Shown here in pieces: positions 406 to 46,616 of a stretch of DNA of 64,000 bases (its first letter is position 1; every line of letters starts with the position of its first letter). The position numbers and the translations under genes were made by a program. The notes under the pieces are model-generated. The model was not told the DNA's origin. It ran no database searches and saw nothing but the letters and a program-made list of their open reading frames with translations. Source of the stretch: Lentisphaerota bacterium (lineage in GTDB: Bacteria; Verrucomicrobiota; Kiritimatiellia; RFP12; UBA1067); NCBI GenBank assembly GCA_015061665.1, contig SUWC01000007.1, forward strand, positions 1 through 64,000, in the 5' to 3' direction.

Positions 406-443
406 GCGCTCAATTATACTCAATCTCAACCCTGGAACTCAAT

Positions 444-457
444 AGCCCATTTGGGTA
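444..457 (-). promoter_or_regulatory. 14-bp near-palindromic operator site A (AGCCCATTTGGGTA), with -10 ATTATA at 413-418
   Basis: 25 bp upstream of TATAAT (minus strand) for the GH5-like gene. Confidence 0.55.
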
Positions 458-490
458 GGACGATTTCGTCGGCATCAACCCGCCCTTATT

Positions 491-509
491 ACGCGGCAGG
501 ATGCCGCGT
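491..509. repeat. REP-like palindrome ACGCGGCAGGATGCCGCGT
   Basis: Same family as 34079-34097 and 34123-34141. Confidence 0.6.
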
Positions 510-537
510 CGCCATTATTCGGACACCCTTTCGCGCA

Positions 538-1782: not shown

Positions 1783-4700
1783 TCAGCGCACCAGCAGTCT
1801 CCAGTCCTTCACGCGCCCCGCCGACTTGCCCTGGCGCGGCGTGTAGCGGATGCCGTAGATGTCGGTCTTCTTGTCCGCGGTGAACTCGATCCAGTGCGGT
1901 ACGGAGCGGTTGGGCGCGATCCAGCACGCCTCGACCTGTCCGTCGATCGCATTCTCGGCGACTCCGTCCTCGCGTATCTCCTCCTCGCTGTCAACGCCAG
2001 TCACCTGAAGGCCCATGGACGTGATCGGATTACCGTCCTTGCCAAGGAAATCGAATTCCGCGACGGACGCGGTGTTCTTCGAGTCGTAGACAGAATCGGC
2101 GACGAAGGTGAATACGCTGCCGCGCATCGGCTTTTCGAACATAGCCACCTGCGCGGCCTCGCCCTGCGGGAAGGTTCCGGACGCGGCAAGCTCTCCTCCG
2201 CCCATCTTTGCGGAAGGACGCTTCTTGGAATTGAAGTCAAGCTCCGGCCTGAGCACGTCGAGTACGGGCTTTGCCGTGAAGGCGACCTCTGCGCCCTTCT
2301 CACCGGGGCCGAAGAAATCAAGAACGACGACGCTGTTCTTCCCCTTGCGAAGCCAGCATCCGGGGACGTAGAGAGTCTGCTGCGGGCCGATGCACCAGAA
2401 GCGGCCGAGGTTGCGTCCGTTGACCCACGCGATTCCCTTGCGCCAAGACGACATGTCGAGGAACGTGTCCGCGGGAACTTCGTCCGCCACCTCCAGCTCG
2501 CCCGAATAAAGAGCCGGTGCATCCGCGTCGCCCGAGAACGCGCCGCCTGCCGCAGCCCTGGCGGAAACGTCCTCTCCGTCGGGATCAATCGGCATCATGC
2601 GCGCGACCCAGCCGGTCAAAGTGGTGCGGTCGAGGCGGATCGGACCGTTGAGCCCCTTGCGGTCCTCCATGCCACTTGACGAATTGATGCGTCCCATCGC
2701 CTCAACGACGATCTGCAGCTTCCGCGCCTTGCCGTCCCTACCGCGCGGCACATGGACCTTGAGTCCGCGATGGCGGCGGTCGAGAGTCCCGAGGCGCTTT
2801 CCGTCGAGGAACACGTAGCCGAAGTCGTGGATGTCTCCGAAGCGGATGTCGCCTCCGATTTCCGCAGGGACGAACGTCTCGTAGCTGACGAGACCGAAGC
2901 CCTGTCCAAGCCGCTCCATGAAGACTGGCGAGTCTATCTTGACTTCGCGCGTGCAGAGCGCGTCGACCGAAGCCGTGCGGCGCAGCGCGACGCTTCCGTA
3001 GTCCTTTACCGGAATCGGCTGCGGCATTTCGCGGATCGTCTCGCCGGGATTCAGATGTTTTGCCATGCGGTCGCGGAACTTCGCGAAGGACGGGTTGGGC
3101 GCGCCGTGTTCGTTGATCGGCGCCTCGTAGTCGTAGCTCGTCACATTGGGGACGAACGGATTGCGGCAGCCGACCCATCCGCCGAACGACGTCCCTCCGT
3201 GGGCCATGTAGAGCGAAAAGCTCGCGCCGTGCTCGAGCATCCAGTCGATCGGGCCGAAGAACTCGCGGTCGCTCTTTGCGTAATGATGGGCCTGCCCCCA
3301 CGTGTCGAACCAGGCGGGGTAGTATTCCGAGCACATGAGCGGTCCCTTCGGCTGGAACTGGCGGATTACGCCGAAGCGCTGCTCGGGGTCTCCGCCGAAG
3401 TTCGCTGCCTGGAAAAGCTCCGGGATAAAGCCGTTCTGCGTTACGCGCGGAGGGTTGCACGCATAGAGAGGGACCTCGAACCCGGCGTCGATCGTGGCCT
3501 GGCGGAGCGCGCGCATGTAGTTGACGTCGTTCCCGTGGAGTCCGTATTCGTTCTCGACCTGCACCATCAGGATCGGACCGCCGCGCGTGACCTGGAGCGG
3601 CGCGAGCACGCGTCCGACCTCGGTGATCCACCTCTTGGCAGGCTCCAGCCAGCGCGGATCGGAGGAGCGCATCGAAATAGGCTTCGCGCCGCCATCGGTG
3701 TCGTTCGCCATCAGCCACCACGGCGCGCCGCCGCCTTCCCATTCGGCGCATGCGTAGGGCCCTGGACGAAGTATCACCCACAGCCCCTCTTCCTGCGCCA
3801 TCCGGCAGAACGCAGCGGCGTCCGCCATTCCGTCCCACTTGAACTTCCCGGGCTCGCGTTCGTGGTAGTTCCAGAACATGTAGCAGCCGACTGCGTTGCA
3901 TCCCATTGCGCGGAGCATCTGAAGCCTGTGGCGCCAGTATTCGCGCGGGATGCGCGCGTAGTGGATCTCGCCGCAGTGTATCTTCAGGGGAGCGCCGTCG
4001 AGGAGGAAACCCGAATCGCCGATCTCGAAAGTGCGCCCGTGCGTGCAAGGCGGAAGATCGACGAAGACTTTTTCCCTTACGCCTTCGCCCCATGGCAGGA
4101 CCTTCAGAGTCAGGCTCTTGGTCCCCTTCGGCATACGGCGAAGCGCGTAGCGTATCGGAGTTCCCTTCCAGAAATCGTCCTGAACGAGGCGTCCATCCGC
4201 ATAAAGGCGCGCCATGTCGCCTTCATACGAAATCTCGACCATCCCGTCGCCTTCCGAAAACGGAACCTCGTACTCCGCCGCCGCATTCCACGCATCCTCG
4301 TCGGGCGTCTGCGCGACGCCGTTCTGTCCGATCGCGACAGGCGGAGGAGTTCCGGCGGACTTCAGGAGCTTTAGGTCGGCAACGGAAAGGCGGCGGCCTT
4401 CGGCATTCTGCGGACACCGGCCTGCGATGGTTCGTCCGTCAAGGAGGCGCTCCACCTTGCCGTCCTTCTCTACGCCGATCCAGCATTCACCGTCGGGCTT
4501 TATGCGGCGCACGTAGTCGTTGTGGAAGACGAAGCGCCCGCGCCTCGTCTCGTTCTTGCTGACGAACACGGGGTCTTCCGCGGCAAACTCCTCCCCGTAG
4601 TCGCGGCAGAACCGAGCAAGCGCGCGGATGAGCCAGTACGCCTTCTGCGGTTCGCCGAATTCAGAGATCGGCGCCTGGAACTCGTAGCTGACGCGCGGCA

Positions 4701-5805
4701 GGTCGTTGTAGTTGGTGAAGAGTCCGCGCTGGCTCTCGGCCATGTTGACGCCGGCGTCGGTCGGATTCGTCCCGCCGTGGTACATGTAGAAGCCCGGCAG
4801 ATTCGAGCCGGAGCCGAGCTTGACTACGGCGAGCGCAAAAGCGTCCATTGGCTCCATGTTGAGGCGACGGTGGTAGCTCGAAGCCATGCCGCCGCCGAGT
4901 TCGCACGTGAAGTAGGGATAACGGTCCGCGCCGTTTGCGTCCTCCGCCTTCTGGCTGCCAAGGGCGTCCGTAGCGATGACGGACGACGTACGCGCGGGGC
5001 GCATCTCGAACGCCTTTCTGTAGTCGCCGGGCATCGACTTGAGGGTGCGGTCCCAGAACCCCTCTGCATAGTCGCCGTAGAGCGGAACCATCTCGCCGAA
5101 AGTCGTCTCGCCGCCATTCAGCTTGGGCCACCCGGTGCGGGTGTATAGCGGGACGTCATAGCCGATCTTTACGGCAAGCGCCTTGAGCGCCTGGTAGTAT
5201 GGCCAGGGGCCGCGGCTTTCGTTCTCGAGCTGGATGCCGACTACGGCGCCGCCGTTCTTCCAGAAATGCGGGGAGACCTCCGTGAACACGCGGCGCCAGA
5301 ACCTCTCGGTCTGGGCAAGGAACTCGCCGTCGCGCGACCTGAGGCGCTTGCGCCATTTTCCGTCCCCTTTGTCGCTTCCCCTGAACTTCTCGATCAGCCA
5401 GTCGGGGAATCCGCCCTCGCGCACTTCGCCATGAACCCACGGCCCTATGCGCACGATCGCCATGAGCCCGGCCTTCTCGACTTCGCCGAGGAAAGCCGAG
5501 AGGTCGCGGTTCCCCGAGAAGTCGTACTCCCCCTCGCGCCACTCGTGGTGGTTCCATATCACGTATGTCGAGACGATGGAGACGCCGCCTTCCTTCATCA
5601 ACTGCAGCGAGCGCGACCATTCGTCGCGGGGGACGCGGGAGTAGTGCATTTCGCCCATGACGGGGACGATCGCCTTCCCGTTCAGGCGCAGGCACCTTGA
5701 ATCGACGTCTATCCTGTCGCCGTTCGGTGCGACCGAAGACGCAGAGAATTCGGCTGCGGCGCAGAGCGCAGCGCAAGCTGTGAAAAGTATTATAATGTGT
5801 TTCAT
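1783..5805 (-). CDS. Tandem double-GH35 beta-galactosidase-like protein with C-terminal discoidin-like (F5/8C) region
   Basis: ORF 1370 aa; likely start MKHIIILFTACAALCAA at 5805. Two GH35-like catalytic regions: RLNGKAIVPVMGEMHYSRVPRDEW...IQLENE and LLDGAPLKIHCGEIHYARIPREYWRHRLQMLRAMGCNAVGCYMFWNYHE...MVQVENEYG. Confidence 0.88.
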   Translation of the reverse strand: MKHIIILFTACAALCAAAEFSASSVAPNGDRIDVDSRCLRLNGKAIVPVMGEMHYSRVPRDEWSRSLQLMKEGGVSIVSTYVIWNHHEWREGEYDFSGNRDLSAFLGEVEKAGLMAIVRIGPWVHGEVREGGFPDWLIEKFRGSDKGDGKWRKRLRSRDGEFLAQTERFWRRVFTEVSPHFWKNGGAVVGIQLENESRGPWPYYQALKALAVKIGYDVPLYTRTGWPKLNGGETTFGEMVPLYGDYAEGFWDRTLKSMPGDYRKAFEMRPARTSSVIATDALGSQKAEDANGADRYPYFTCELGGGMASSYHRRLNMEPMDAFALAVVKLGSGSNLPGFYMYHGGTNPTDAGVNMAESQRGLFTNYNDLPRVSYEFQAPISEFGEPQKAYWLIRALARFCRDYGEEFAAEDPVFVSKNETRRGRFVFHNDYVRRIKPDGECWIGVEKDGKVERLLDGRTIAGRCPQNAEGRRLSVADLKLLKSAGTPPPVAIGQNGVAQTPDEDAWNAAAEYEVPFSEGDGMVEISYEGDMARLYADGRLVQDDFWKGTPIRYALRRMPKGTKSLTLKVLPWGEGVREKVFVDLPPCTHGRTFEIGDSGFLLDGAPLKIHCGEIHYARIPREYWRHRLQMLRAMGCNAVGCYMFWNYHEREPGKFKWDGMADAAAFCRMAQEEGLWVILRPGPYACAEWEGGGAPWWLMANDTDGGAKPISMRSSDPRWLEPAKRWITEVGRVLAPLQVTRGGPILMVQVENEYGLHGNDVNYMRALRQATIDAGFEVPLYACNPPRVTQNGFIPELFQAANFGGDPEQRFGVIRQFQPKGPLMCSEYYPAWFDTWGQAHHYAKSDREFFGPIDWMLEHGASFSLYMAHGGTSFGGWVGCRNPFVPNVTSYDYEAPINEHGAPNPSFAKFRDRMAKHLNPGETIREMPQPIPVKDYGSVALRRTASVDALCTREVKIDSPVFMERLGQGFGLVSYETFVPAEIGGDIRFGDIHDFGYVFLDGKRLGTLDRRHRGLKVHVPRGRDGKARKLQIVVEAMGRINSSSGMEDRKGLNGPIRLDRTTLTGWVARMMPIDPDGEDVSARAAAGGAFSGDADAPALYSGELEVADEVPADTFLDMSSWRKGIAWVNGRNLGRFWCIGPQQTLYVPGCWLRKGKNSVVVLDFFGPGEKGAEVAFTAKPVLDVLRPELDFNSKKRPSAKMGGGELAASGTFPQGEAAQVAMFEKPMRGSVFTFVADSVYDSKNTASVAEFDFLGKDGNPITSMGLQVTGVDSEEEIREDGVAENAIDGQVEACWIAPNRSVPHWIEFTADKKTDIYGIRYTPRQGKSAGRVKDWRLLVR

Positions 5806-5840
5806 GATCCAATTATACCAAAAGACGCCGCATTGAGCAT

Positions 5841-5854
5841 TACCCAAAAGGGTA
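5841..5854 (-). promoter_or_regulatory. Operator site B (TACCCAAAAGGGTA), with -10 at 5812-5817
   Basis: 23 bp upstream of TATAAT for the double GH35 gene. Confidence 0.65.
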
Positions 5855-28541: not shown

Positions 28542-28603
28542 GCGGACATCCTCCATGAGTTTATGCATATCGGCATTTTAACATTTCGTGTCCGTCTCGC
28601 CAT

Positions 28604-28617
28604 TACTCCAAAGAGCA
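28604..28617 (-). promoter_or_regulatory. Operator site E (TACTCCAAAGAGCA), with -10 at 28575-28580
   Basis: 23 bp upstream of TAAAAT for the SASA-like gene. Confidence 0.6.
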
Positions 28618-28637: not shown

Positions 28638-28651
28638 TACTCTTCGGGGTA
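28638..28651 (+). promoter_or_regulatory. Operator site at the sensor kinase promoter (TACTCTTCGGGGTA), with -10 TAGAAT at 28676-28681
   Basis: 24 bp upstream of TAGAAT; start codon begins 6 nt after the -10. Confidence 0.58.
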
Positions 28652-28687
28652 GTGCACTGCAATCGCGAAATATGGTAGAATACTTGC

Positions 28688-30082: not shown

Positions 30083-30693
30083 CAAAGGTGTTTATCGTAG
30101 ACGACCATGCCGTGGTCCGCATGGGGCTCAAGGCAACCCTTCCCCTTGAAGGCGACGTCGAAATCGTCGGCGAGGCCGTTTCGGGCGACGGCGCGGCGCA
30201 GGCCGTCATTACGGCGAGACCCGATGTCACGCTTTTGGACATAAGACTGCCCGGAAAGGACGGTCTCGAGGTTCTCGCCGAGCTGATGAACGCGAATCCT
30301 GACGCCAAGGTGATCATGCTCACAACAAGCGAGGCAGACAACCACGTCTACGAGGCGCTGAAGCGCGGCGCTCGCGGCTATGTCGTAAAGGATCGCGACG
30401 CAGACGAGATACTGACTGCTGTGCGCATGGTCGCGAACGACGCGAAGTACATCCCGGACACCGTGCGCGCGCTTTACCGCGAGCGGCAGATGATGCCGGA
30501 CCTGACGGCACGCGAGCATGAAACACTCGAGATGATGGCAGCGGGAAGCCGCAACAGCGAGATTGCGGACAAGTTCGGTATTTCAGTCGACGGCGTGAAG
30601 ATGCACGTCAAGCACATCCTCGAGAAGTTCAACGTCACGGACCGAACCGCCGCCGTGGCCGAAGCGCTGCGCAGGGGCTTCATCAGACACTAA
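30079..30693 (+). CDS. NarL/FixJ (LuxR-type) response regulator
   Basis: 204 aa; receiver MTKVFIVDDHAVVRMGLKATL...VTLLDIRLPGKDGLE; LuxR HTH LTAREHETLEMMAAGSRNSEIADKFGISVDGVKMHVKHILEKFNV; 4-bp overlap with kinase. Confidence 0.94.
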   Translation: MTKVFIVDDHAVVRMGLKATLPLEGDVEIVGEAVSGDGAAQAVITARPDVTLLDIRLPGKDGLEVLAELMNANPDAKVIMLTTSEADNHVYEALKRGARGYVVKDRDADEILTAVRMVANDAKYIPDTVRALYRERQMMPDLTAREHETLEMMAAGSRNSEIADKFGISVDGVKMHVKHILEKFNVTDRTAAVAEALRRGFIRH

Positions 30694-33805: not shown

Positions 33806-33858
33806 TGTAGTTATCCTTTCTTACACTCATATTCTACCAAAAATACGCACCGCCGCAT

Positions 33859-33872
33859 TACCCACTTGGGTA
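33859..33872 (-). promoter_or_regulatory. Operator site F (TACCCACTTGGGTA), with -10 at 33831-33836
   Basis: 22 bp upstream of TAGAAT for the CE12-GH27 operon. Confidence 0.65.
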
Positions 33873-33892: not shown

Positions 33893-33991
33893 TTATGGCA
33901 AATGCTCAGTTGCAGTAGGGGGTTGCGTCGCTCCGCGACGCAACAAGAAAGGTCGTGTCGCAGTCGACTTCCAAGCAACTCCCATTCGCCT
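33893..33991 (+). repeat. Direct repeat copy 1 in the 1.3-kb non-coding interval
   Basis: Shares CTCAGTTGCAG(T)AGGGGGTTGCGTCGCTCCGCGACG and AAAGGTCGTGTCGCAGTCGACTTCCAAGCAACTCCCATTCGCCTTCCCTCGAGCGCTCCCGAT with copies near 34703-34875. Confidence 0.7.
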
Positions 33992-34078
33992 TCCCTCGAG
34001 CGCTCCCGATTAATTGATTCAATGCGAGAGCTGCGAGTGAAGGTGCTGTCTCCGTGTGGTTAGGCTGCACCTTTGGAG

Positions 34079-34141
34079 ACGCGGCTTCCAGCCGCGTATA
34101 ATACAGCCCACTTACAACCCCAACGCGGCAAGATGCCGCGT
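34079..34141. repeat. Pair of REP-like palindromes (ACGCGGCTTCCAGCCGCGT and ACGCGGCAAGATGCCGCGT)
   Basis: Two 19-bp palindromes in the intergenic region. Confidence 0.6.
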
Positions 34142-34702
34142 CTCCAAATTAACCCCCTCTTCCCTCTTCCCTCCTCCCCATTTCCCATTTCCATACTGCT
34201 TGCTTGTAAGGGCTTGGCTTCGTTCGTGGCAACGGTCCTCGCCTTTTGATACGGCCGATTTGCGCGTCCTCACGCGGCTCGGCAACCGCTAGGTTTGCCT
34301 TCGCCGCGAGTCCTGCTCAAATCGGCTCGTCTGAAAAGGTTCCGGTCCGCTCGGCCCCGATCGAAGCCAACCTTGCATTTTCGACAGCGTTCGCCGCGAC
34401 GCCTTCGCGCCGGACGCCCCGGCCCCGCAGCGCCGTCCGCCTCCTCCCGCGCCCATCATCGGCAATCCGCGTCGCCTGGCTTCGTCGCGCGACGACGTGG
34501 CTTGCGCCATGCCGCCGCGCGTCCTTGCCATGCTCGCGCCTTGCCGCGCTTGACGCGAGCCTGAGTCGTCCGACCTGCTCCGCCAGTTCGTCCGTCGCTA
34601 GTCGCCGCGTCTCGCTTGTGCCGCATTGCGCGCTGCCGTGCGTAGTCCTCCCCGGTCCAAAACCGGCTTCTCGCCACAGAGTCAAGCCGTTGCGGTCTCT
34701 AA

Positions 34703-34875
34703 GGGAAAGGTCGTGTTGCAGTCGACTTCCAAGTCACTCCCATTCGCCTTCCCTCGCGCGCTCCCGATTTATCTGATTTTGCGCGAGCGCGTGAATGTCC
34801 GTCGCGGAGCGACGGACCCCCTTGATAGCAACAGCTCAGTCGCTTGCAGGGGGTTGCGTCGCTCCGCGACGGAAC
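34703..34875 (+). repeat. Direct repeat copy 2 in the 1.3-kb non-coding interval, sub-blocks in swapped order
   Basis: AAAGGTCGTGTTGCAGTCGACTTCCAAGTCACTCCCATTCGCCTTCCCTCGCGCGCTCCCGAT followed by CTCAGTCGCTTGCAGGGGGTTGCGTCGCTCCGCGACGGAAC. Confidence 0.7.
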
Positions 34876-35152
34876 ATGGGATGGTAGGAGAGTTGTTTAC
34901 GAAGAGCCCAAATTCGTGTATATTCGTGTCGGGCGTAGCCCGGTTCGTGCCACTCGGCAAGCCGCCGCGGTTCGTGGTCGTGCGTCAGCGCCCGAGAACA
35001 GATATTGCCCACAATTTGGCATGTGACTACGCAGCACAGGTAAAATTACGATGAGAACATCAGTTTGGCATCGATAAACATTGGTCTAAATTTATTTTCA
35101 GCTTTACTGAAGTGGCAAAGGCGGGTTCTGCCAAAAATACGCCCCGCCGCAT

Positions 35153-35166
35153 TACCCACTTGGGTA
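35153..35166 (-). promoter_or_regulatory. Operator site G (TACCCACTTGGGTA), duplicate of F with degenerate -10 (CAGAAC) at 35125-35130
   Basis: Extended near-identity with F: GTACCCAAGTGGGTAATGCGGCGG(G/T)GCGTATTTTTGG. Confidence 0.58.
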
Positions 35167-35180: not shown

Positions 35181-37067
35181 TCACTGAAACAAGCCCGTCA
35201 GCCAGCTCCAGAAGCCAGACTTCTGCTCGCTGCGCACCGCCTTGCCCTCCGCAAAGGTGAACTCGTAAGTGCCGTCAAAGAGCGGCGCGGTGAACACAAC
35301 CCTGCTGAACCCGACGTTTGCAGTATCACACGACAGTTCTCCTCGTGGATTGCGTTCGACGGACCATGAACCAGGCCTGGACGAATATACAAGCATTCTC
35401 CGCCCGTTGGAATTCAACAGGACTCCGCCGTCTACGACAGATGCCTCGGTCCTCGTCTGAAACGCCCACCTGTAGGTGTGATCGCCGCAGACACCCCAGA
35501 AGGAGTCAGCGACCGTAAAAGCGCCGCCGGAGAGGCGAAAAGTGCGCTCGGCCGTTCCGACATAAGCCGGGTACAGCCCAGCCGTGTCTGCCGCGAAGGA
35601 CGCATCGTCGAGCTTCGCCAGCTTTACCGCCGCGTCGACCTTCGGCTGCTCGTCGTCGATGGTGAAGACGGAATGCGCGCGCTCACTGTACCTGAACACG
35701 CTCCACCTTGAGCTTGACTGCGCCATGTTCCATACGTCGATCCCGGCGGTCTCGAGCGTATTGTAATTCTCCGTCCCGCCGTCGCACACCCAGCGCACCG
35801 CCCATCCTGCGCCAAAGGTCTCGTAGACAAACGAGCCCGCATCCATGTGCCCGTGGCTGAAGGACGCCCTCCCTCCCTTGACTGCAACCCAGTGCGAGGA
35901 GTCGCCTATCAGACCGACAGGCTGTTCGTCGTGATGGAAATATCGCGCGCCGTCAAGCGGAGTGCGCCCTGACTCGCCTGGACGCCACCACATAGCGAAT
36001 GCGATCGGCCAGGAGATGCCGCACATCTTCGTCCGAGCACACTTCTCCAGCTTCTCGTTTTCGTATGCGTACCACTCGGGGTGACCGGACCTTGCGCCAA
36101 GCCAGAACATGCTCCACTCAACCCCGCGGTAAAAGCCGTCAGCGGTGGCGTTGCGGTCCGAAAAGTCAAAGTACTCACCGCTCGGTGCGGTTATCGCGTC
36201 TATGAAAGCGCCCGTTAGGGATACACCCGGCATGTCAAACAGTCCGAAATCCGTTCCGCACGTCTTGCCCAGCATGTCCATTAAAAGAACGTAGTAGTCC
36301 GTACCGTAGCTCCAGTAGGCCGGGCCTTCGGGGTAGACGCCGAAAGGAGCGTACGCCGTCGCGCCGGCTTTCGCCGCGCGGCAGCAGTCCGCTACAACTT
36401 GCGCGGACGACTCAAGCCGCCCTTCGTCTCGCGCGATTGCAAGCGCGGCCGCCGCAACGCCGCAACCGCATACCTGCGACCAGTTGATCTTGGAGTCCCA
36501 GAACCAGTGCCCGGCGGAAGCCGCTATGCACTTCTCCGCAAGGGCATCGGAGACCTTTTTCCTTTCGTCGACGGACATCACGTCCCAGCAGGCGTCATAT
36601 CCGAGCGCCACGCCAAGGCCGACCATGGCCGAATCCAGGAAATGCGAAGGATTCCAATCTACGTAGTCCGCCGCAGCCAGCATCTCGGCGATGCAGCGAC
36701 GCGCATACTTCCCGTCTTCTGTCGCAAGATAGGCCGCGGCGAGAAGGTGGCTCCGCGAACCGATGTCCGTCAGCATCCGCTTCCCGACAATGGTGCGCGG
36801 GAAAGGCGCCTTCGGCATGAGCTCGTCCGCCCTCGCGACAATGCTGGCGCGGAACGCGGACATCGCGGGCGAATCCTTACGGCCGAGGCGCCTGCGGAAT
36901 TCCCCGGCCCCGCCCTTTCCGTAGAGCAGGTATGGATGCCTTTCCGGAAGAGACGTCTCGAACGCTGCAAGCACGTCCGACTTGTCAGGGTGCCCTGCCG
37001 GCGGCCTTGCTCCGGCCGCCGCGAAGGACATGACAACGCCTGCCAACAGTAGAAGCGCCGCTCGCAT
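35181..37067 (-). CDS. Heparinase II/III-like polysaccharide lyase, secreted
   Basis: 628 aa; ASFSHGHMDAGSFVYETFGAGWAVRWVCDGGTENY typical of heparinase II/III family; signal peptide. Confidence 0.83.
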   Translation of the reverse strand: MRAALLLLAGVVMSFAAAGARPPAGHPDKSDVLAAFETSLPERHPYLLYGKGGAGEFRRRLGRKDSPAMSAFRASIVARADELMPKAPFPRTIVGKRMLTDIGSRSHLLAAAYLATEDGKYARRCIAEMLAAADYVDWNPSHFLDSAMVGLGVALGYDACWDVMSVDERKKVSDALAEKCIAASAGHWFWDSKINWSQVCGCGVAAAALAIARDEGRLESSAQVVADCCRAAKAGATAYAPFGVYPEGPAYWSYGTDYYVLLMDMLGKTCGTDFGLFDMPGVSLTGAFIDAITAPSGEYFDFSDRNATADGFYRGVEWSMFWLGARSGHPEWYAYENEKLEKCARTKMCGISWPIAFAMWWRPGESGRTPLDGARYFHHDEQPVGLIGDSSHWVAVKGGRASFSHGHMDAGSFVYETFGAGWAVRWVCDGGTENYNTLETAGIDVWNMAQSSSRWSVFRYSERAHSVFTIDDEQPKVDAAVKLAKLDDASFAADTAGLYPAYVGTAERTFRLSGGAFTVADSFWGVCGDHTYRWAFQTRTEASVVDGGVLLNSNGRRMLVYSSRPGSWSVERNPRGELSCDTANVGFSRVVFTAPLFDGTYEFTFAEGKAVRSEQKSGFWSWLTGLFQ

Positions 37068-37071: not shown

Positions 37072-38316
37072 CTACTCCATGTTCTTAAGGCGCAGCAGGG
37101 CCTCTAGGAAATAATAGTCGGCGTAGTTGAGCGGAACGTCTACCTCCTCTCCTCCTGGCTTGTGCGCGACGGAATGCTTCAGCAGCCAGTGGCCGACCTC
37201 GTCGCCTTCGGAGAAGTACGCGGGGGAGGCGAGCGAGGCGAGCTGCTTAACCGCGAATGCGCGGTAGGACGCCCCCTTCTCGCCGCCGACATGGCCCGAA
37301 AGCTCAAGGAGTCCGCACGCCATCACAGCCGCGGCGGAACTGTCGCGCTCCTCGCCGGGCGCGCCGTAGTCCCAGAAGGGAACCCCATCCTCTGGCATGT
37401 TTGGGTTGTTGATCGCGAAGTCGGAGACCTTCTGCGCAAACTCAAGGTACGACCTGTCCCCGGTCTCGCGGTACATCATCGTGTAGCCGTAGATCGCCCA
37501 GGACTGCCCGCGCGACCAGGCCGTCTCGCATGAGAGTCCCTGCCCGCGGCGGATTTCCTGCACGACGCCGAGAAAGCCCGGGCGCTGGTCGTAGTTAAGC
37601 ACGTGATACGTTCCGCCGTCCTTGCGGAAGTGGTGCTTCATCGTGACGGATGCGTGCGATCGCGCGACCTTGTCGTAGAAGTCTGCCTTTCCGCAGGCGT
37701 CCTCGAACGACTTGCATGGATGCTTGGCCGCCCACTCCAGGAGTTCGAGGTTCATCATGTTGTCTGGGATGACGAGGAAGTTCGTCTTGTCGCCGATCTG
37801 GCCCCAGCTACGGATGAGCCCGAGGTCCTCGCTGAAGCGCTTCGCGAGGCTTCCTGCGGTCTCGAAAAGGATCGCGTCGTACCTGTCGGTCTTGAGGATT
37901 CGACGGGCGTTGCCGTAGGAACAGTACATCAGAAATCCTGTGTCGTGGTGGGTGCTGTTGGACCTGTGCGGCTCCAGCAGCTCGGTCCAGACGATTGCGC
38001 GTTCCTTGAAGAACTTGTCGCCGGTAGCCTCATAGAGATACCAGAGCGCGCCCGGGTAGTGCCCGGAGGTCCACCAGCTGACGTCGCGCATGTCAAGTTC
38101 GCCCTTGGAGCGGTTGTAGCTGTACGGCAAGAGCTTTGTCCCGACAGTGCCCCTGTCCATACGTGCGGTCGCGGCCGCGTCGAGGGCCTTGTAGTGCGCG
38201 GCGGACTTCGTGAAAATCTCCGGAATCGCGGCCCTGAGCGCGCCTTCGCCCGCGTCGGCCCAGAGGGACGCCGATGCAACCATGGCCAGCGACACGACAA
38301 CTGCGTATTTCTTCAT
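37072..38316 (-). CDS. Unsaturated glucuronyl hydrolase-like (GH88/GH105)
   Basis: 414 aa; DVSWWTSGHYPGALWYLYEATGD, GFLMYCSYGNA, ETAWSRGQSWAIYGYTMMYRETGDRSYLEFAQKVSDFAINN. Confidence 0.9.
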   Translation of the reverse strand: MKKYAVVVSLAMVASASLWADAGEGALRAAIPEIFTKSAAHYKALDAAATARMDRGTVGTKLLPYSYNRSKGELDMRDVSWWTSGHYPGALWYLYEATGDKFFKERAIVWTELLEPHRSNSTHHDTGFLMYCSYGNARRILKTDRYDAILFETAGSLAKRFSEDLGLIRSWGQIGDKTNFLVIPDNMMNLELLEWAAKHPCKSFEDACGKADFYDKVARSHASVTMKHHFRKDGGTYHVLNYDQRPGFLGVVQEIRRGQGLSCETAWSRGQSWAIYGYTMMYRETGDRSYLEFAQKVSDFAINNPNMPEDGVPFWDYGAPGEERDSSAAAVMACGLLELSGHVGGEKGASYRAFAVKQLASLASPAYFSEGDEVGHWLLKHSVAHKPGGEEVDVPLNYADYYFLEALLRLKNME

Positions 38317-38356: not shown

Positions 38357-40588
38357 TTATCTGATCACAACCGAAAAACCATACCTCGTCCTGCGGAAGT
38401 TCACGGAAATGTCGCCGTCGTCGTCGACGAAAACACGGGCCGCATAGTCTCCCATATTGCCGGACGTGCGGCACGTCACGCCTTCCAGCGCGTAGGGCGC
38501 ATACCGGCATCCCCTGACGATCTTGCAGGTTTCGCCCGCCTTCGGAACGTCCGTAGGCCTTCTGTCGGACGAAAGGACGATTTCGGCGCCAGGTTCGATG
38601 GTGAAGAACTCGGCGGAGAGAGACGGACGCTTGGCGTCGCCGAGCCTGAACTCAAGTGCCGCGCCCGACCTTACGTTGACGGGGCCTCCAACGACTCTGT
38701 CGGCGCTTATGACAGCCGATCCGGAATCGACATCGAGGCCAATGGTTGCCGGAAGGTCGGCCGCGATAGTCACCGAACCCAGTCCCGAGACACCGACAGC
38801 ACCGCAACCACGGATATCGGCTCTGAGGTCCATCTCCTGCGCCTCGGCAGGCGCTAGCGCCAGCTTGACGCTGTCCAGACGAATCGGCGAAGGCCCGGGG
38901 TTAAACTCTGATTCGACCGTGACGGTGTGGTGCTTCTTCGCCGGCATGTCGATCGTCAGGTGGTTGACCATAAGCGTGTCATGCGCGCCGTCTACACTCG
39001 CGCCGACTACGTTGGTCACCGCGACAAAAGAGAATCCGGTGCCGTCCGACGTTCCAGGATTGAAGCCCGGCACGTACTCCGGGTGAGTGCCGCCGTTGTA
39101 GTTGTAGTGGGCGCTGGCGATCTTCGCATAGACGTCGCCGAACTGCTCCTGCATCAGGAATCTTATGGAGTAGAGCGTGTTACCCCTGAGCCACTGGTAA
39201 TAGCTCTGCGTCGTGTAGGCCTGCGCCGTGCGGAGATAGTTGAACGCAACACTCCAGTTGGAAACCCCGTCCTTGTTGACCGCCATTGACGACGGACCGA
39301 GCGTGGCATCCGAAAGGCTGACGTCATCCCACAGTTTCACCCATCCGTCCTCGCGCAGGATGCACTCTCCGTAGTCGCCGACGATGTGCGAGGCGGGGCG
39401 GAAACGGACCTTGAGGTTTCGGATGGCGATCTTGCCGACAGTCTCTACGCCGTTCTCCCCGACAACATCCGTCACGTCGAGCGCCACGCCCGTCTGCACA
39501 TCCTGTCCAAAACCAGGGCCGAACGGCGAATCGATTGCCGCATAATTCGGGCTGTCGCCGGAGCCCTTGTACTGATGCCCAGCCCAGATCACGCGGCACT
39601 GCACGTCCGCATTCACCTGGTCGAACTGGACAACCGCTCCGGCACGGCGCTTCGAGTTGTTCTCGTCGACTTCGGCGAGCAGGTACATCTTCACCGTCGT
39701 GCCTCCGTTCGTCACGACGACCTGGTAGCTCTGGGCTTCCGCCCATGGCACCGTGACGACATGTCCACTCTGCTCAACCTTCAAGCTAACGTCGCCGCTC
39801 ATGCCGACTATGTCTTCAACGCGAAGGTTGCGCGCAACCGTCACGCCAGCAGACGAATCCGCGGGCTTTATGCAGGGGAGGTATCCGTAGGTCTCTTCGT
39901 CAAGCCCCGAGGTGTCCGTGCTGGTGAACACGATTTCCAACGGTGCAGCGGAAACATCGGCCCCTTCTCTCAAGACAAATCCGAGATCCGCAAGAGCGCG
40001 GACTTTGTAGGCGACAGAGTACAGCGTATTTGTGACCACATCAAGATCACCGCCTTCCGTCGTCATGTCCATCTGTCCGGCCGTATAGTTGGCCATGTAC
40101 CGTCCCTTCACGATTCTGGCCTTGACATCAAGACCTTCCTGTCGATACTGCATCACGAATCCGTATGTGGCGGATGACCCCTGGCCATTCATCTGAAGCT
40201 GGCACTGGACGGAGCCATCCACCTCGTTCGTCGTGACAAAGTAGCATCCGGCTTCCTGCCAGTAGCACTGGTCGCCGCTTCCGGCGCTGATCTTGCCTGT
40301 GAAGCTCGCGATGTCCGTCAGCTTGACGTTCTTCCAGACGACCTCGTCAACGCCGAGAGGACCGCCCTCTGGGTAGAACACTCCGGGGCGGACGGTGAGG
40401 GTCGCATTCGCAGGAACAACGTAACCTGCGCTCAGGCTCGTGTCCGCGTTGACTTCATGGCGGTCTGCCTCGGAAACGGCCGGCGCTGAGGCAAGAGCCG
40501 TTACTGATGCCATTGCCATGAATGCGGCGACGGCCAGCCTGATATCCTTTTTTACACTTGCGTCGAGTTTTGTTTTAAGGTCTTTCAT
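38357..40588 (-). CDS. Large secreted protein of unknown function (beta-rich), C-terminus YGFSVVIR
   Basis: 743 aa; signal-peptide-like region after MKDLKTKLDASVKKDIRLAVAAFMAMASVTALASA; no confident family. Confidence 0.7.
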   Translation of the reverse strand: MKDLKTKLDASVKKDIRLAVAAFMAMASVTALASAPAVSEADRHEVNADTSLSAGYVVPANATLTVRPGVFYPEGGPLGVDEVVWKNVKLTDIASFTGKISAGSGDQCYWQEAGCYFVTTNEVDGSVQCQLQMNGQGSSATYGFVMQYRQEGLDVKARIVKGRYMANYTAGQMDMTTEGGDLDVVTNTLYSVAYKVRALADLGFVLREGADVSAAPLEIVFTSTDTSGLDEETYGYLPCIKPADSSAGVTVARNLRVEDIVGMSGDVSLKVEQSGHVVTVPWAEAQSYQVVVTNGGTTVKMYLLAEVDENNSKRRAGAVVQFDQVNADVQCRVIWAGHQYKGSGDSPNYAAIDSPFGPGFGQDVQTGVALDVTDVVGENGVETVGKIAIRNLKVRFRPASHIVGDYGECILREDGWVKLWDDVSLSDATLGPSSMAVNKDGVSNWSVAFNYLRTAQAYTTQSYYQWLRGNTLYSIRFLMQEQFGDVYAKIASAHYNYNGGTHPEYVPGFNPGTSDGTGFSFVAVTNVVGASVDGAHDTLMVNHLTIDMPAKKHHTVTVESEFNPGPSPIRLDSVKLALAPAEAQEMDLRADIRGCGAVGVSGLGSVTIAADLPATIGLDVDSGSAVISADRVVGGPVNVRSGAALEFRLGDAKRPSLSAEFFTIEPGAEIVLSSDRRPTDVPKAGETCKIVRGCRYAPYALEGVTCRTSGNMGDYAARVFVDDDGDISVNFRRTRYGFSVVIR

Positions 40589-40667
40589 TTTGGCTCTCCT
40601 GATGCGGAGGTTTCCTTTGCCCCGCTTTCTGCCGCTATTTTAGCATTTCACCCCATTGATGTACAAC

Positions 40668-40681
40668 TGCACTTTGGTGCA
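40668..40681 (-). promoter_or_regulatory. Operator site H (TGCACTTTGGTGCA), with -10 at 40637-40642
   Basis: 25 bp upstream of TAAAAT for the 743-aa gene/GH88/heparinase operon. Confidence 0.58.
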
Positions 40682-40836
40682 GGGCGGACGTAGGGTTTTA
40701 AGAATGCTCCGCATTCAAATCTCGCGTTGAGATCCGGAGCGTTCGGTAGGGCGCAATCACCGATCGCGCCGCACAAACAGCCTTGCAGGATAGTTGGGCG
40801 GTTGCACTGAACAGAAGTTTATGCGATAATAGAGGC

Positions 40837-42927
40837 ATGTCCGACAGTGCTAAAAAATATCTGCTCGCTTCTCTGGCCCTGCTGGCTGCAGGGGCGTACG
40901 CCGACGAGCCGCGCACCATTCCCGTTGCAGAGGCGCGAAAGATCGCCGCAACGGGAGCAAGGTACGAAGTCGAGGGCGAAGTAATATCCTCGACGCGGTA
41001 CTGGAGCGCGATACAGGACGACACTGGCGTCATGCAGGTGCGCAACTGGACGTCGCCGTGGGAACTTGGCGACATAGTCCGCATGACGATTGAAACAGTC
41101 GCCCCTTCCAACGACTCTCCTGGCTACGTCCGCCGAATAGTACGCCGCTCGCAGGTGACAGGTCACCGCGCGCCTAAGCCTCCGCAAGAAGTCAGGTCTT
41201 ACGACGTGAGCCGCGGACGGATCGAGCCGCTCTCGCCCGTCATACTGCGCGGGACCGTGACGAGCGCGATTCCAGACGACATCGACGGCGCATGGAGTTT
41301 CCTGATCGTCGAAAGCGAAGGCGACCAGGCGATCGTTTCGCTGAGATGGCCGGACGCCTCGGCGCGCCGCGACATGTCGCACCTCATCGACGCCGAAGTG
41401 TCCGTCAGCGGCATATTCCTCCGACAGGGAGACGGCGGAAGACAATTCATGGGGCGCAACATTCTGATAGAAAGCACCAACTCCATATCAGTCGTACAGG
41501 CAGCGCCCGTCGACCCCTTCGCCTCGGCAAGTCCGCTCAAGCTGGACTGGCCGACTGACATAACGGCGATAGCGGACGGACACCGCCGACTCGCCGTCGG
41601 CACGGTGACGGCAAGCTGGATGGGGCGCAACTTCGTCCTGAAGACGGACGACGGGCACCCGATAACCGTGAAACTGCCAGCTGGACACGCGCTTCCGAAG
41701 ACGGGCATGCGCGTCGAAGCGGCAGGGTTCGTGCGGCAGACCCCATTCGTCATGAAGCTGTCGAACGGGCTATGGCGCGAGGTTGACGGGCCCGCCCCCA
41801 TGCAACTGCCGCTCCATGTCGAAGCAAGGCAGCTGTTCTCGGACGTCCATGGAAATCCCGTTGTAAACGTCCGCTATCACGGGCACCTCGTTAGCCTCAC
41901 GGGCACGATTAGGGAGGTGTTCAACCTAGACTCCCCAACGCGCATTCTCGCGCTCAACTGCGACGGAAACCCGATAATGGCAATTGCGGAGAACATGCAG
42001 CTGCCGCCCCCGGGAAGCGTCGTGGAGGTAACTGGCATCTGCATCGCAAACGAGAACTCGGATTCCGACGACCTGATCCGCCTGTCTGGGCTGACGGTCG
42101 TGCTTCGCGACCAAAGCGACCTCAAGGTACTGCAGTACCCGCCATGGTGGACGGTCGACCGACTGCTCGTCGTCATCGGCATTCTGTTCGCGTCGATAGC
42201 GGTCGCGGCATTCTGGGTGGCGTGGCTCAACAAGCTCATCAGAAGGCGCAGCAGAGAGCTGCTCAAGGAACAGATCGCGCACACCGAGTCCGAGCTGCGC
42301 ATCGGCGAGAGGACGCGACTTGCGGTAGAACTGCACGACTCCCTCTCCCAGAGCCTGGCTGCGCTTTCGTTCCAGATTTCGTCCGCGCGTTCCGCAAAGG
42401 CAGCCGGCATGGACGAGGCGGAGCGCGCTCACCTGTCGAAGGCCGAGAAGATGCTGGATGCCAGCCGGACGGAACTGCGGCACTGCCTGTTTGACCTGCG
42501 CAGCAACACGCTGGAGGAGCGCAACATAGAGACCGCGATCCTCAAGACGCTGAAGGCCGACACCGCCGAGGCCGAGATAAACATCGACTTCCACGTAACG
42601 CGCTCGCGCTTGAACGACACAACCGCGCACGCGACGCTGATGATCATCCGCGAACTCGTCTCCAACGCAATCCGCCACGGCGAGGCAAAGCACATCATGA
42701 TATCAGGCGGGATCAAAGGCAGCATCTTCTCATTCTCGGTGACGGACGACGGAACAGGGTTCGACGTAGCGAGCCGCCCTGGCCAGAACGAGGGGCACTT
42801 CGGCCTGGCCGGAGTGCATCAGCGGGTCAGCAACCTCGGCGGCACGTTCGACCTTCGGTCTTCGCCCGGCAAAGGGACTACGGCAACTGTCACGATTCAA
42901 CTGACCAACCACACCAAACATAAATGA
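40837..42927 (+). CDS. Sensor histidine kinase (HisKA_3/HATPase) with several N-terminal OB-like modules
   Basis: Start MSDSAKKYLLASLALLAAGAYA at 40837; RTRLAVELHDSLSQSLAALSFQISSAR; ELVSNAIRHGEAKHIMISGG; FGLAGVHQRVSNLGG. Confidence 0.9.
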   Translation: MSDSAKKYLLASLALLAAGAYADEPRTIPVAEARKIAATGARYEVEGEVISSTRYWSAIQDDTGVMQVRNWTSPWELGDIVRMTIETVAPSNDSPGYVRRIVRRSQVTGHRAPKPPQEVRSYDVSRGRIEPLSPVILRGTVTSAIPDDIDGAWSFLIVESEGDQAIVSLRWPDASARRDMSHLIDAEVSVSGIFLRQGDGGRQFMGRNILIESTNSISVVQAAPVDPFASASPLKLDWPTDITAIADGHRRLAVGTVTASWMGRNFVLKTDDGHPITVKLPAGHALPKTGMRVEAAGFVRQTPFVMKLSNGLWREVDGPAPMQLPLHVEARQLFSDVHGNPVVNVRYHGHLVSLTGTIREVFNLDSPTRILALNCDGNPIMAIAENMQLPPPGSVVEVTGICIANENSDSDDLIRLSGLTVVLRDQSDLKVLQYPPWWTVDRLLVVIGILFASIAVAAFWVAWLNKLIRRRSRELLKEQIAHTESELRIGERTRLAVELHDSLSQSLAALSFQISSARSAKAAGMDEAERAHLSKAEKMLDASRTELRHCLFDLRSNTLEERNIETAILKTLKADTAEAEINIDFHVTRSRLNDTTAHATLMIIRELVSNAIRHGEAKHIMISGGIKGSIFSFSVTDDGTGFDVASRPGQNEGHFGLAGVHQRVSNLGGTFDLRSSPGKGTTATVTIQLTNHTKHK

Positions 42928-43550
42928 CCATGGAAAAGACACGCATACTCATCGCAGACGACCATTCGCTCGTTAGGATGGGTCTGTCCTCCCTCATCGG
43001 ATACCAACAAGACATGGAGGTCGTCGGAGAGGCGGAGGACGGCGAGATGGCCGTGGAACGCACGCTCGCGCTCAAGCCCGACGTCGTGATCATGGATATC
43101 GTCATGCCGAAGCTGGATGGAGCGTCCGCGACGGAGCGCATACTCGCGGCCTCGCCTGCCACAAAGATATTCCTCCTAACGTCCTTCGGCAACTCGGCCG
43201 ACCTTCTGAAGGCAGTAGTGGCCGGCGCAAGGGGCGCGTTCCTCAAGGACTCGCCCAACGACCAGCTTCTCGACGCGGTCCGGCGCGTGGCAAAGGGCGA
43301 GACGGTCATACAGAAGGTAATCCAGCAGCAGATGGACGAGGCACCGTACCTGCTTTCGCTCTCACCACGCCAAATCGAGATACTGCACTCCGCGTCATGC
43401 GGGTTCAGCACGGAAGACATAGCTCGTCAGTTCGGCATCACGCCAGACGGCGTCAAGAAGCACTTCGCCTCCATCTGCGCGAAGCTGGGCGCTTCCACGC
43501 GGACAGAGGCGATAGCGATCGCACTGCGCAGGCAGCTGCTAAAGGTTTAG
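42924..43550 (+). CDS. NarL/FixJ (LuxR-type) response regulator
   Basis: 208 aa; KTRILIADDHSLVRMGLSSLIGYQ; LSPRQIEILHSASCGFSTEDIARQFGITPDGVKKHFASICAKL; 4-bp overlap with kinase. Confidence 0.94.
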   Translation: MTMEKTRILIADDHSLVRMGLSSLIGYQQDMEVVGEAEDGEMAVERTLALKPDVVIMDIVMPKLDGASATERILAASPATKIFLLTSFGNSADLLKAVVAGARGAFLKDSPNDQLLDAVRRVAKGETVIQKVIQQQMDEAPYLLSLSPRQIEILHSASCGFSTEDIARQFGITPDGVKKHFASICAKLGASTRTEAIAIALRRQLLKV

Positions 43551-43557
43551 CGGACCG

Positions 43558-46530
43558 CTACTTGCCCGCGATGTCGATTTCAAGGCGGAAGAACTCGACA
43601 GTCTGCTCGGCGGACGGCGCGACGGTGAACTCCGGGGCTGTGCCGGCATCTGTGCGCTCCGCATACGTTCCATTGACATCGGTGCTGGACATGAGCTTTA
43701 TGTCGAGCCTTACGTTGTCAGGAGGATTGACGCTGTTTCCAAGGCTGATCCTGAACTTGCCGTCCGAAGTGGGCACTATGTGCAGAAGAGGCTTGCTCAT
43801 TTCGACTGTCGGATTCAGTCCAAGCGAGTAGCACTCGAAGTAATTCAGTCCGTTATCGCACTTCGTAGCCGAATCAGGGGCAAGCAGCTCCTCCGCTTCG
43901 GCAACCGTCTTGCCGCTGAGATAATCGGACACGAAACCACTGCCCACAGCCACATTGTCCGAAGAAACGCGCACAATTATGTTTGTCGAGTAGAAGCTTC
44001 CGGTGAGCGACTTGAAGTTGCATGAGCCCTTGTATTCAACAGTCTGGATCGAGGAGCCGGAATTCGCGAACGGGAAGTTGCCGTTCCCGCCGTTCTTGAG
44101 CTGAACATTCCCCACCCAGACGGAATAATCCTGCGCGAGCAGGTCGAAAGTCGACACTACCGTATACATTTCTTCGGCGGACGGCGTCAGCCCTTCACCC
44201 TGCACGGTCAGCCACCCGGGGGTGTTGTTTATCCTTGTATAGACCTGGAATACGGTTTCGTTGTTCTCGTTTGCAAGTCTCACCCCGCCCTTGGCGCCGG
44301 CGGTAATCTCGACGGACGTGTCCGCAAAGTCGCAGAATTCGACGACATTGGTGAAAGTAACGATTCCGCCAGCCGCGCTGATCGCGGCAAACGAATTGTT
44401 CGAAAGCGGTGCGACATGAGTGGAGGAATCGTAGCTTGGCTGCGCAGTCCATGTGCCGGTGCCGCTGTGCTCATAGTCTTCGTTCACCCACCCCGAGTTT
44501 TCCTTTGCGACCCTTGAAGTCCCGACAAAATCTTCCTGCGATCCGCCGGACGCATGTATCGAATAGGCGCATGCCGCGCCTGGTACAAGCTCCGTCAATT
44601 CGAACGTCACGGTGCCGTTTTCATAGGTACCAACGAAATTCCTTCCGCCGAAAGTCAACGTCCATGTAGCGGTCGGGTCAGCGTGCGTCACGCCGACCGT
44701 AAGCTTAGCGCTTCTGAAATCGGCCTTATACACGATTGACGGCGTACCCCACGCAAACTGCTCGGACGCGGAATAGACAAGCCTGACGAAGCTGTCGTTG
44801 GAGTTCTCGCTGTCCACAATGGTGTGGCTTCCGCAGAAGTACGAGGTCCCGTTCGTGACAACCACTGGGCCGGCCCCTTCGTCGACTTTGATCTCAATTC
44901 CATCGAGAGCGCGGTCGGTGAACGTCAACGTTCCGGCACCGTTCTTCGTAATCGCCGGCTTTGCCACGCCAGCGGCCCTGCTCAACGGGACTGCAATCTT
45001 TGCGTTTTGGACTCCAGTGTCGAATGTCGCGCCGCCCGCCGCAATCTCATAAACCAGCTTGCCGGAAGCGTCCCTCTGCAGCCACGATGTTCCGTTCGGC
45101 GTACTATAAGGCTTAAGCGTTCCGCCGTTGAAAACCACCTTAGAGTCATTAGATACGGTTTCGTTGACGGCTCTGATTAAATTGGCCTTAAGGACCCCGT
45201 TCGGGAGTAGCGTTAAACGTTCAACTTTATTTGCAGTTGTTGCATTTGATGCAAATCGCACCTGATCACTGAGCTCCAGAGTTCCCGTGCCGGTCCCTCC
45301 GCCGATCACGGCATTGCAGGTTCCCTCCCCTTCTACGCCGAAAAAGAGCGAATTGGAATCCACAGTTCCGCCGGATACTTCAAGGGACCCGTTGGCATTT
45401 GCTTTGTTGCACAGATATATGCCGGAAGGAATGCTTACCGTTCCGTCCGACACAACAAAACGACCTTCACCGTTAACCCCGATAGTGGCCTTGTTTTTCA
45501 CAGACATAGCGCCTCCGGAAACAACCAAATCTCCATGGCTGTTTGCAGACTGTCCAGCAGATACTTCATACGCATAGACAGAACCCGAACTCAGCTCAAA
45601 TCTGGCAACAGAATTTGCGCCGTTGCCAATGCGTATGTAACCGTTTCTGTTGGTAACAGCCAGCGTTGCTCCGGACACAGAGACAAGTCCAGTGGAAGAG
45701 CTTCCGTTTCCAATAATGAAGGCGCCGCCGTTGATATCGACCTTACCGCCGGAGAGATTCATCTCACCGTAGGACGCGGTATTGACTCCGGCAAAGGCAT
45801 TACTGACGATTGCGAGACTTCCGCCTGTCATATCAACAATGCCCCTTGCGGAAGACTCGTAGCCGACTCTGAAATGCGAATTGGAAATCACGGCGCTTCC
45901 TCCGGTAATTTCTAAAAGGCCGGTCGCGCCACTCCTGTATCCGACGGAGAAATCGTTAGTGGCGGAGTGTTCTATGAGACCAGACGAAAGGACGACCTTG
46001 CCGAAATTGTCCGTTCCCGTTCCTGCGCCGATGCGGAACGGACCGCCTTTATTGTAGAGATAGCCACCCGCCACGGTGACGATGCCGGTTGCGCATGTAC
46101 TGGATGTGTCGTTCCTACCGCCTATGTCGAACGGCCCTGCTTCACCGCCCTGAAAGGTGGACCCGTCCGCATGCTCGAGCGTTCCGCCGTCCGTGATGTT
46201 GATCTCGCCCCTGCTGTGGTCCGCCGCTGCGACGTAGACGCCCTTTCTGAACTGAATGCCGTAGCCCTCACCGGAGACGTTCAGCTTTCCCGCGGCGTTC
46301 GACACGTTTTTGGGTATGAAGTCGCTGTTCGAGGCCGGACTGTAATACACGCGGTCATTGATGTTCGTCTCACCGTTGATAACATCATGGCCCGACCATT
46401 CCGTGCCCTTGTCCCATTTGATGTCGCTCGCCTCAACGCCGAAGGCATGAGATAGTAAAAGGGCCAAAAACGAGCAGCGCAGCAACTTTGCCACCGCGCT
46501 TCTTGACGATATTTTGGTAGATGTAGACAT
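43558..46530 (-). CDS. Autotransporter-associated beta-strand-repeat-like secreted protein
   Basis: Start MSTSTKISSRSAVAKLL at 46530 with upstream AAGGAG; repeats such as VSGGTVDSNSLFFGVEGEGTCNAVIGGG; C-terminus TVEFFRLEIDIAGK. Confidence 0.78.
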   Translation of the reverse strand: MSTSTKISSRSAVAKLLRCSFLALLLSHAFGVEASDIKWDKGTEWSGHDVINGETNINDRVYYSPASNSDFIPKNVSNAAGKLNVSGEGYGIQFRKGVYVAAADHSRGEINITDGGTLEHADGSTFQGGEAGPFDIGGRNDTSSTCATGIVTVAGGYLYNKGGPFRIGAGTGTDNFGKVVLSSGLIEHSATNDFSVGYRSGATGLLEITGGSAVISNSHFRVGYESSARGIVDMTGGSLAIVSNAFAGVNTASYGEMNLSGGKVDINGGAFIIGNGSSSTGLVSVSGATLAVTNRNGYIRIGNGANSVARFELSSGSVYAYEVSAGQSANSHGDLVVSGGAMSVKNKATIGVNGEGRFVVSDGTVSIPSGIYLCNKANANGSLEVSGGTVDSNSLFFGVEGEGTCNAVIGGGTGTGTLELSDQVRFASNATTANKVERLTLLPNGVLKANLIRAVNETVSNDSKVVFNGGTLKPYSTPNGTSWLQRDASGKLVYEIAAGGATFDTGVQNAKIAVPLSRAAGVAKPAITKNGAGTLTFTDRALDGIEIKVDEGAGPVVVTNGTSYFCGSHTIVDSENSNDSFVRLVYSASEQFAWGTPSIVYKADFRSAKLTVGVTHADPTATWTLTFGGRNFVGTYENGTVTFELTELVPGAACAYSIHASGGSQEDFVGTSRVAKENSGWVNEDYEHSGTGTWTAQPSYDSSTHVAPLSNNSFAAISAAGGIVTFTNVVEFCDFADTSVEITAGAKGGVRLANENNETVFQVYTRINNTPGWLTVQGEGLTPSAEEMYTVVSTFDLLAQDYSVWVGNVQLKNGGNGNFPFANSGSSIQTVEYKGSCNFKSLTGSFYSTNIIVRVSSDNVAVGSGFVSDYLSGKTVAEAEELLAPDSATKCDNGLNYFECYSLGLNPTVEMSKPLLHIVPTSDGKFRISLGNSVNPPDNVRLDIKLMSSTDVNGTYAERTDAGTAPEFTVAPSAEQTVEFFRLEIDIAGK

Positions 46531-46602
46531 GGTCCTGACTCCTTGTGGGTTACACGAAAAAGTATAGCAAATATGAATCCTCACAGTCTAGATGTTCGGC
46601 GC

Positions 46603-46616
46603 TACACTTTGGTGCA
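46603..46616 (-). promoter_or_regulatory. Operator site I (TACACTTTGGTGCA), with -10 TATACT at 46561-46566
   Basis: 36 bp upstream of TATACT, about one helical turn further than the others. Confidence 0.45.

Follow-up and report, generated by a model that had tools for sequence, protein, structure and literature searches.

A family of 14-bp inverted repeats, held at a nearly constant distance upstream of extended -10 boxes, precedes genes for secreted polysaccharide-degrading enzymes and histidine kinase operons in a 64,000-nucleotide stretch of DNA from a Lentisphaerota bacterium (a gut member of the Kiritimatiellae; contig SUWC01000007.1, positions 1 to 64,000; hereafter the window), as well as in related genomes. 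These repeats are probably operators for dimers of NarL/FixJ-type response regulators, drawn from expanded HisKA_3/GerE pairs, and would activate the secreted-enzyme genes in a class-II-like manner; comparison of the sequences gives this reading good, though not complete, credence. The sites are best read as several local regulons under paralogous regulators, not as one. Contig C174, which carries the window, belongs to a draft genome of 3.44 Mb in 177 contigs. The genomes of its relatives are drafts with short contigs, and their species are not phylogenetically independent.

A sequence-only reading of the window had listed ten sites fitting TRCNC-N4-GNGYA near -10 boxes and had called for a scan of this and related genomes. 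Their operator family was confirmed and is larger than first noted. The window holds 11 exact matches to the pattern against 3.8 expected, a number reached by none of 100 shuffles. Over the whole genome the bare pattern is not enriched (201 matches vs 288 for the reversed pattern used as control), and it is the combination with a spaced -10 that bears out the earlier expectation. When an extended -10 (one with TGn) was required at 15-35 bp, 32 matches against 7 were obtained in the same genome, and the distance d, measured in bp from operator to -10, accumulates at 23-25. The strict composite places TACNC-N4-GNGTA 22-24 bp upstream of the extended -10 TGNTANNNT. Per-genome rows summed over the 115 family genomes gave 131 matches against 12 in register; out of register, where N22-25 precedes TGN and d is 25-28, they gave 23 against 15. 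For 147 genomes from elsewhere in the class, the sums were 5 against 42. This architecture is therefore a trait of a single family, mostly of one genus, in which genomes carry 0 to 18 strict sites. Composite matches at other spacings, which precede QueF, purH and a class II tRNA synthetase, were regarded as chance.

A motif-free examination of 208 extended -10 boxes in loci of the same genome showed a peak of palindromic upstream 14-mers at d=23-24 alone, with 16 cases at each of the two distances and ~3 elsewhere; many of these loci had been retrieved for carrying a site, so that the examination is not fully independent. Chance, in the form of a degenerate pattern chosen by eye in one window, would account for the lack of enrichment of the bare pattern and for two of the ten listed sites that do not look functional. 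However, the composite is enriched when judged with in-register, out-of-register and outside-family controls, and the family-wide in-register count refutes chance for the family, which makes this explanation extremely improbable. Equal motif frequency with no spacing enrichment, named beforehand as an outcome that would speak against the proposal, is thus not what the composite displays.

Promoter anatomy was taken from 116 unique promoters. The operator consensus, TAC-N-C-N4-G-N-GTA, is a 14-bp inverted repeat with 7-0-7 arms, in which positions 4 and 11 vary as complementary pairs in 87 of the 116 promoters (C-G in 61, A-T in 20 and T-A in 6). Arms of these class A operators match TACYC or TACAC, with positions 6-7 variable, and form TACCC, TACAC and TACTC sub-types. 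Directly 3' of the operator, at the -35 position, stands T/G-T-G, a residual TTG with T at 75% and G at 60%. The modal distance from operator to TGN is 20 bp, followed by TANAAT with A at 93% and 81% in the unconstrained -10 positions. Counting the -10 as -12 to -7, and with transcription starts placed from the -10, the operator spans -49 to -36 and is centred at -42.5, in agreement with the centre near -42 that had been predicted. With a spacing mode of 23 and the -35 reduced to TTG, this is an architecture of the class II activator type. The earlier suggestion that the operator stands in for a -35 element holds in that the -35 is degenerate, but a remnant TTG remains immediately downstream. 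The half-sites partly resemble the TACYYMT half-site of NarL (PMC4886647), but their arms lie 2 bp closer, and the 7-2-7 (16-bp) spacing of NarL sites is not found in this 14-bp repeat.

The same anatomy bears on two other explanations. Were the 14-mer a promoter part read by an alternative sigma factor, its fixed spacing to the -10 would be expected; nevertheless, the -10 and -35 remnants are of the ordinary sigma-70 type, the 14-mer is an inverted repeat with co-varying arms, and two unrelated sequences occupy one position, which renders this idea very unlikely. Repression by NarL-type regulators, whereby an operator beside the -35 blocks RNA polymerase, would suit the way the operator abuts the -35 and the general ability of NarL to repress as well as activate. 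It is nonetheless quite unlikely given a degenerate -35, a nearly constant -10 spacing (22-25, mode 23) that repressors do not need, and promoters that seem too weak to need repression. An ATG lies 6-7 nucleotides past the -10 in 31 of 86 promoters, and these mRNAs are therefore probably leaderless, which suggests leaderless mRNAs at about a third or more of site promoters. At window sites 5841, 28604, 28638 and 444, an ATG stands 6-8 nucleotides after the -10.

The sites in the window and the genes downstream of them are as follows (GH, glycoside hydrolase family).

444-457, minus strand: weak class A site TACCCAAATGGGCT, d=25 to TATAAT at 413-418, without TGn and with one arm damaged; the gene downstream (ATG at 405, continuing beyond the window) gives a 135-aa fragment without a Pfam match.
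5841-5854, minus strand: class A operator TACCCTTTTGGGTA, extended -10 TATAAT at 5812-5817, d=23; upstream of a GH42-like/GH35 gene (1783-5805) whose start looks leaderless.
20322-20335, minus strand: class A operator TACACTTTGGAGTA, -10 TATAAT at 20293-20298, d=23; upstream of a GH2 gene (16814-20260).
25615-25628, minus strand: class A operator TACACTTTGGAGTA, -10 TATAAT at 25586-25591, d=23; upstream of a secreted protein gene of no Pfam family (23712-25553).
28604-28617, minus strand: class A operator TGCTCTTTGGAGTA, -10 TAAAAT at 28575-28580, d=23; upstream of a SASA esterase gene (25641-28568).
28638-28651, plus strand: class A operator TACTCTTCGGGGTA, -10 TAGAAT at 28676-28681, d=24; upstream of the operon of histidine kinase HK1 and response regulator RR1.
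33859-33872, minus strand: class A operator TACCCAAGTGGGTA, -10 TAGAAT at 33831-33836, d=22; upstream of GDSL esterase (32615-33805) and GH27-like (30710-32587) genes.
35153-35166, minus strand: inactive duplicate of the 33859 promoter with an intact operator and CAGAAC at the -10 position.
40668-40681, minus strand: class A operator TGCACCAAAGTGCA, -10 TAAAAT at 40637-40642, d=25; upstream of genes 38357-40588, 37072-38316 and 35181-37067 (weak Hepar_II_III match).
46603-46616, minus strand: class A-like palindrome TGCACCAAAGTGTA, 36 bp from TATACT and off-register; doubtful member.

Nine of the ten listed sites fit the pattern exactly and are intergenic or at gene ends, while the tenth, 444-457 (AGCCCATTTGGGTA), misfits on one arm. 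The spacing had been given as 22-25 bp for nine sites and 36 bp for one; eight are indeed so spaced and 46603 does lie at 36 bp, but 35153 has no -10. Seven have an extended -10 at 22-25 bp, its TGn having escaped the earlier reading. By quality, the list comprises these seven strong sites, one weak (444), one dead copy (35153) and one misspaced (46603), and two or three of the ten are better left out or given less weight. The 35153 promoter duplicates 45 bp of the 33859 promoter at 95.6%, with TAGAAT changed to CAGAAC, and was rejected as a working promoter given its decayed -10 and the lack of an intact open reading frame (ORF) behind it. Site 46603 was rejected as an in-register site, there being no -10 at 22-25 bp. 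Two extra exact matches (2113 and 29988) are G+C-rich, fall within coding ORFs and are without a -10. The region 33950-35150 contains repeated stretches that also occur in the DNA upstream of 33859.

As had been proposed, the sites precede genes for polysaccharide degradation, namely those of secreted carbohydrate-active enzymes, and histidine kinase operons as well. In-register sites outside the window precede GH84, GH10, GH27-GH106, GH43-GH2, GH95, GH28, GH43 and GH2 genes, and also genes for LamG and very large repeat (PATR) proteins. In relatives, their targets include NAGLU, GH43-GH2, GH88-SASA, rhamnosidases, RGL11, GH2 and others. Crude signal peptides were counted in 60 of 72 downstream ORFs vs 344 of 1000 other ORFs from the same loci, a background that includes spurious ORFs.

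A second operator, class B (CCCNC-N4-GNGGG), was a common form among other palindromes at the class A position. In combination with a spaced -10 it gave 68 matches against 2 in the genus, and it typically lies 24 bp from the extended -10. Class B sites precede genes for pectate lyase-pectinesterase, GH43, GH97, GH3 and a heparinase-like protein; those at L101:14128, L118:224, L124:16894, L128:1766, L240:5200 and 8938, and L243:7891 stand ahead of genes for pectin degradation and for other secreted enzymes. At L284:5420, near a NarL-type regulator, a perfect palindrome CCCTAACATTAGGG has a -10 at 25 bp on either side and is possibly a further operator type.

The window carries two kinase-regulator pairs.

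28688-30082, plus strand: HK1, HisKA_3 histidine kinase with a signal peptide, a periplasmic all-beta sensor, one transmembrane segment and a DesK/NarQ-like core.
30079-30693, plus strand: RR1, NarL-type response regulator, receiver plus GerE; recognition helix SVDGVKMHVKHILEKF.
40783-42927, plus strand: HK2, HisKA_3 histidine kinase with a long periplasmic sensor; the start may be 40837.
42924-43550, plus strand: RR2, NarL-type response regulator; recognition helix TPDGVKKHFASICAKL.

Both regulators match PF00072 and PF00196, a receiver followed by the GerE helix-turn-helix, and each is adjoined by its cognate HisKA_3 kinase; the genome totals 25 GerE and 23 HisKA_3 matches. RR1 falls short of the NCBIfam cut-offs for NarL (137 bits vs 250) and NarP (122 vs 343), and by sequence its closest PDB entries are VraR and DesR, with NarL (1a04) also matched. 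A near relative with a 96% identical RR1 is a Kiritimatiellae metagenome-assembled genome from roe-deer omasum. The HK1 sensor was modelled with good confidence as two all-beta units (residues 31-220, pLDDT mostly about 80-93). Foldseek matches of the HK1 model include Thermus single-stranded DNA-binding protein (SSB), a tandem oligonucleotide/oligosaccharide-binding (OB)-fold protein, and its kinase core matches VraS and DesK, so that the modelled sensor looks like tandem OB folds. Our guess is that its signal is a soluble breakdown product in the periplasm. Periplasmic all-beta sensors like those of HK1 and HK2 recur, as a repeated GVVT...-type motif, in many HisKA_3 kinases of the genus.

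Several observations connect the sites with NarL-type regulators, which probably stand behind them as the earlier reading had supposed. Across 61 genomes of the genus, the number of class A sites correlates with the number of GerE genes (rho 0.63; partial 0.68 given AraC number and genome size), while the partial correlation with AraC number is -0.36. Operators occur upstream of kinase-regulator operons at window position 28638, its G064 orthologue (L179:12310), L183 and L194; in L290 one stands immediately ahead of a regulator gene. Of the divergent promoter at 28.6 kb, both operators are kept in the G064 orthologue, but the intervening DNA is not. Operator 28638, in front of the HK1-RR1 operon, points to putative autoregulation. 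In 6 genomes, TACACTT(T/C)CGTGTA sites occur together with a regulator orthologue that has helix SEDGVKVRLKHAYEKL. Within the recognition helix, the residue that follows VK, which we take to be the base-contacting Val189 position of NarL, is M, K, L, I, V, K, K, N and A in nine distinct helices from class A loci, and T, T, E, D, S, E, E, E, E and S in ten from class B loci, with no overlap. Sub-motifs thus follow particular regulator orthologues and paralogues and a second operator class exists, and we abandoned the earlier idea of a single regulon under a single regulator. For the TACTC/TACAC sites at 20-29 kb in the window, RR1 is the most likely regulator. GerE gene number ranges from 0 to 27 across species of the one genus, indicating that two-component pairs were recently expanded or lost.

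Operators of another DNA-binding family common in polysaccharide-degrading genomes (LacI, AraC, CRP-like or GntR) would also be palindromic, as is generally known for LacI, GntR and CRP, and AraC regulators are abundant in the genus. Still, site number follows GerE and not AraC when both are considered with genome size, in a comparison restricted to these two families; moreover, sites lie on kinase-regulator operons, and the sub-motif tracks both the regulator orthologue and its recognition helix. We consider such operators unlikely.

Against NarL-type activation weigh several further points. The site of NarL itself is 16 bp vs 14 bp here. The helix rule is post hoc, and only three later distinct helices (L277, L290 and L288) tested it, all in agreement. 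A regulator gene lies within 10 kb of 12 of 86 sites (about 5% expected), most sites being without one, and proximity is only a modest genome-wide argument. Only 1 of 40 further regulator loci had a site of either class together with a spaced extended -10, and many paralogues must therefore use other operators or targets. AraC number is also correlated with class B number (0.61). Genes of a housekeeping type (dihydroorotate dehydrogenase electron-transfer subunit, mannitol dehydrogenase) follow a few of the in-register sites.

With NarL-type activation, we infer the following course. A phosphorylated regulator dimer would bind the inverted repeat at -49 to -36 and touch sigma region 4 and alpha of RNA polymerase, at a promoter whose extended -10 (TGnTAtAAT) is good but whose -35 is a mere remnant (TTG). 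The secreted polysaccharide-degrading enzymes, and often the regulator's own kinase-regulator operon, would thereby be switched on, perhaps in response to a sugar signal. Paralogues would differ in their half-site, TACNC (class A) or CCCNC (class B), a choice in which the residue that follows VK presumably has at least some part.

Among documented promoters, the nearest are the simple NarX/NarL promoters of E. coli, yeaR-yoaG and ogt, which share a NarL-type regulator, TACYY-like inverted half-sites and an operator abutting the -35. At yeaR and ogt, one NarL dimer at such a 7-2-7 site suffices or contributes, and the ogt operator is directly upstream of the -35, centred at -44.5 (PMC7419079). 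In contrast, the present promoters have a 14-bp 7-0-7 site in place of the 16-bp 7-2-7 site, a centre at -42.5, an extended -10 and a remnant -35, and involve secreted carbohydrate-active enzyme targets and many paralogous pairs with different half-sites. VraSR, DesKR and LiaSR are alike in the HisKA_3 core fold (VraS/DesK) and in that RR1 is nearest to VraR and DesR; their sensors are membrane-embedded, whereas those described here are periplasmic and OB-fold-like. The operators of these three systems probably differ from ours as well. Polysaccharide utilisation loci of Bacteroidota place clusters of glycoside hydrolases, lyases and esterases under signal-dependent control by hybrid two-component systems (HTCS), SusR or extracytoplasmic function (ECF) sigma factors. 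Here the pairs are NarL-type, and the sites are dispersed over many contigs and single genes. A non-exhaustive search of open-access papers found no description of the control of polysaccharide degradation in Kiritimatiellae. If true, our reading would provide a sequence rule that predicts, for a gut lineage that is poorly cultured, which secreted enzymes are regulated together and by which sensor. It would also supply NarL-type regulators and operators paired in a natural series, with specificity changing at one helix position, and would indicate a route by which enzymes join a regulon when promoter and export signal move as a unit.

Pairwise comparison of 96 site promoters revealed several same-genome pairs whose likeness begins at the upstream edge of the operator and stops where the signal peptide ends. 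The apparent cassettes of 20322 (GH2) and 25615 (unknown protein), which have unrelated mature proteins, are 86% identical over 135 bp (window 20171-20335 and 25464-25628), and those of a GH95 gene on C24 and a GH2 gene on C154 are 93% identical over 140 bp (L098:16360-16580 and L111:200-420). The latter two proteins are 92% identical over residues 1-25 and unrelated beyond. GH95 and GH2 have unrelated folds, and therefore divergence of a duplicated gene does not explain their shared cassette; copying of a cassette, or fusion of a new gene behind one, does. A class B cassette pair was found in L101 and L243. Cassette movement could be how the sites spread. More broadly, we tentatively propose, at somewhat less than even probability, that the regulons of this genus grow by copying operator, promoter, start and signal peptide onto unrelated enzymes, under an expanded NarL-type family whose helix and half-site have co-diversified into readable classes. 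Near the contig end, window position 59297 and C174 position about 66714 (L112:16714) carry near-identical promoter-like stretches, TTATTTT(C/A)AAATCA...CATTTTCGTTTGATA(C/A)AAT, which precede different small proteins.

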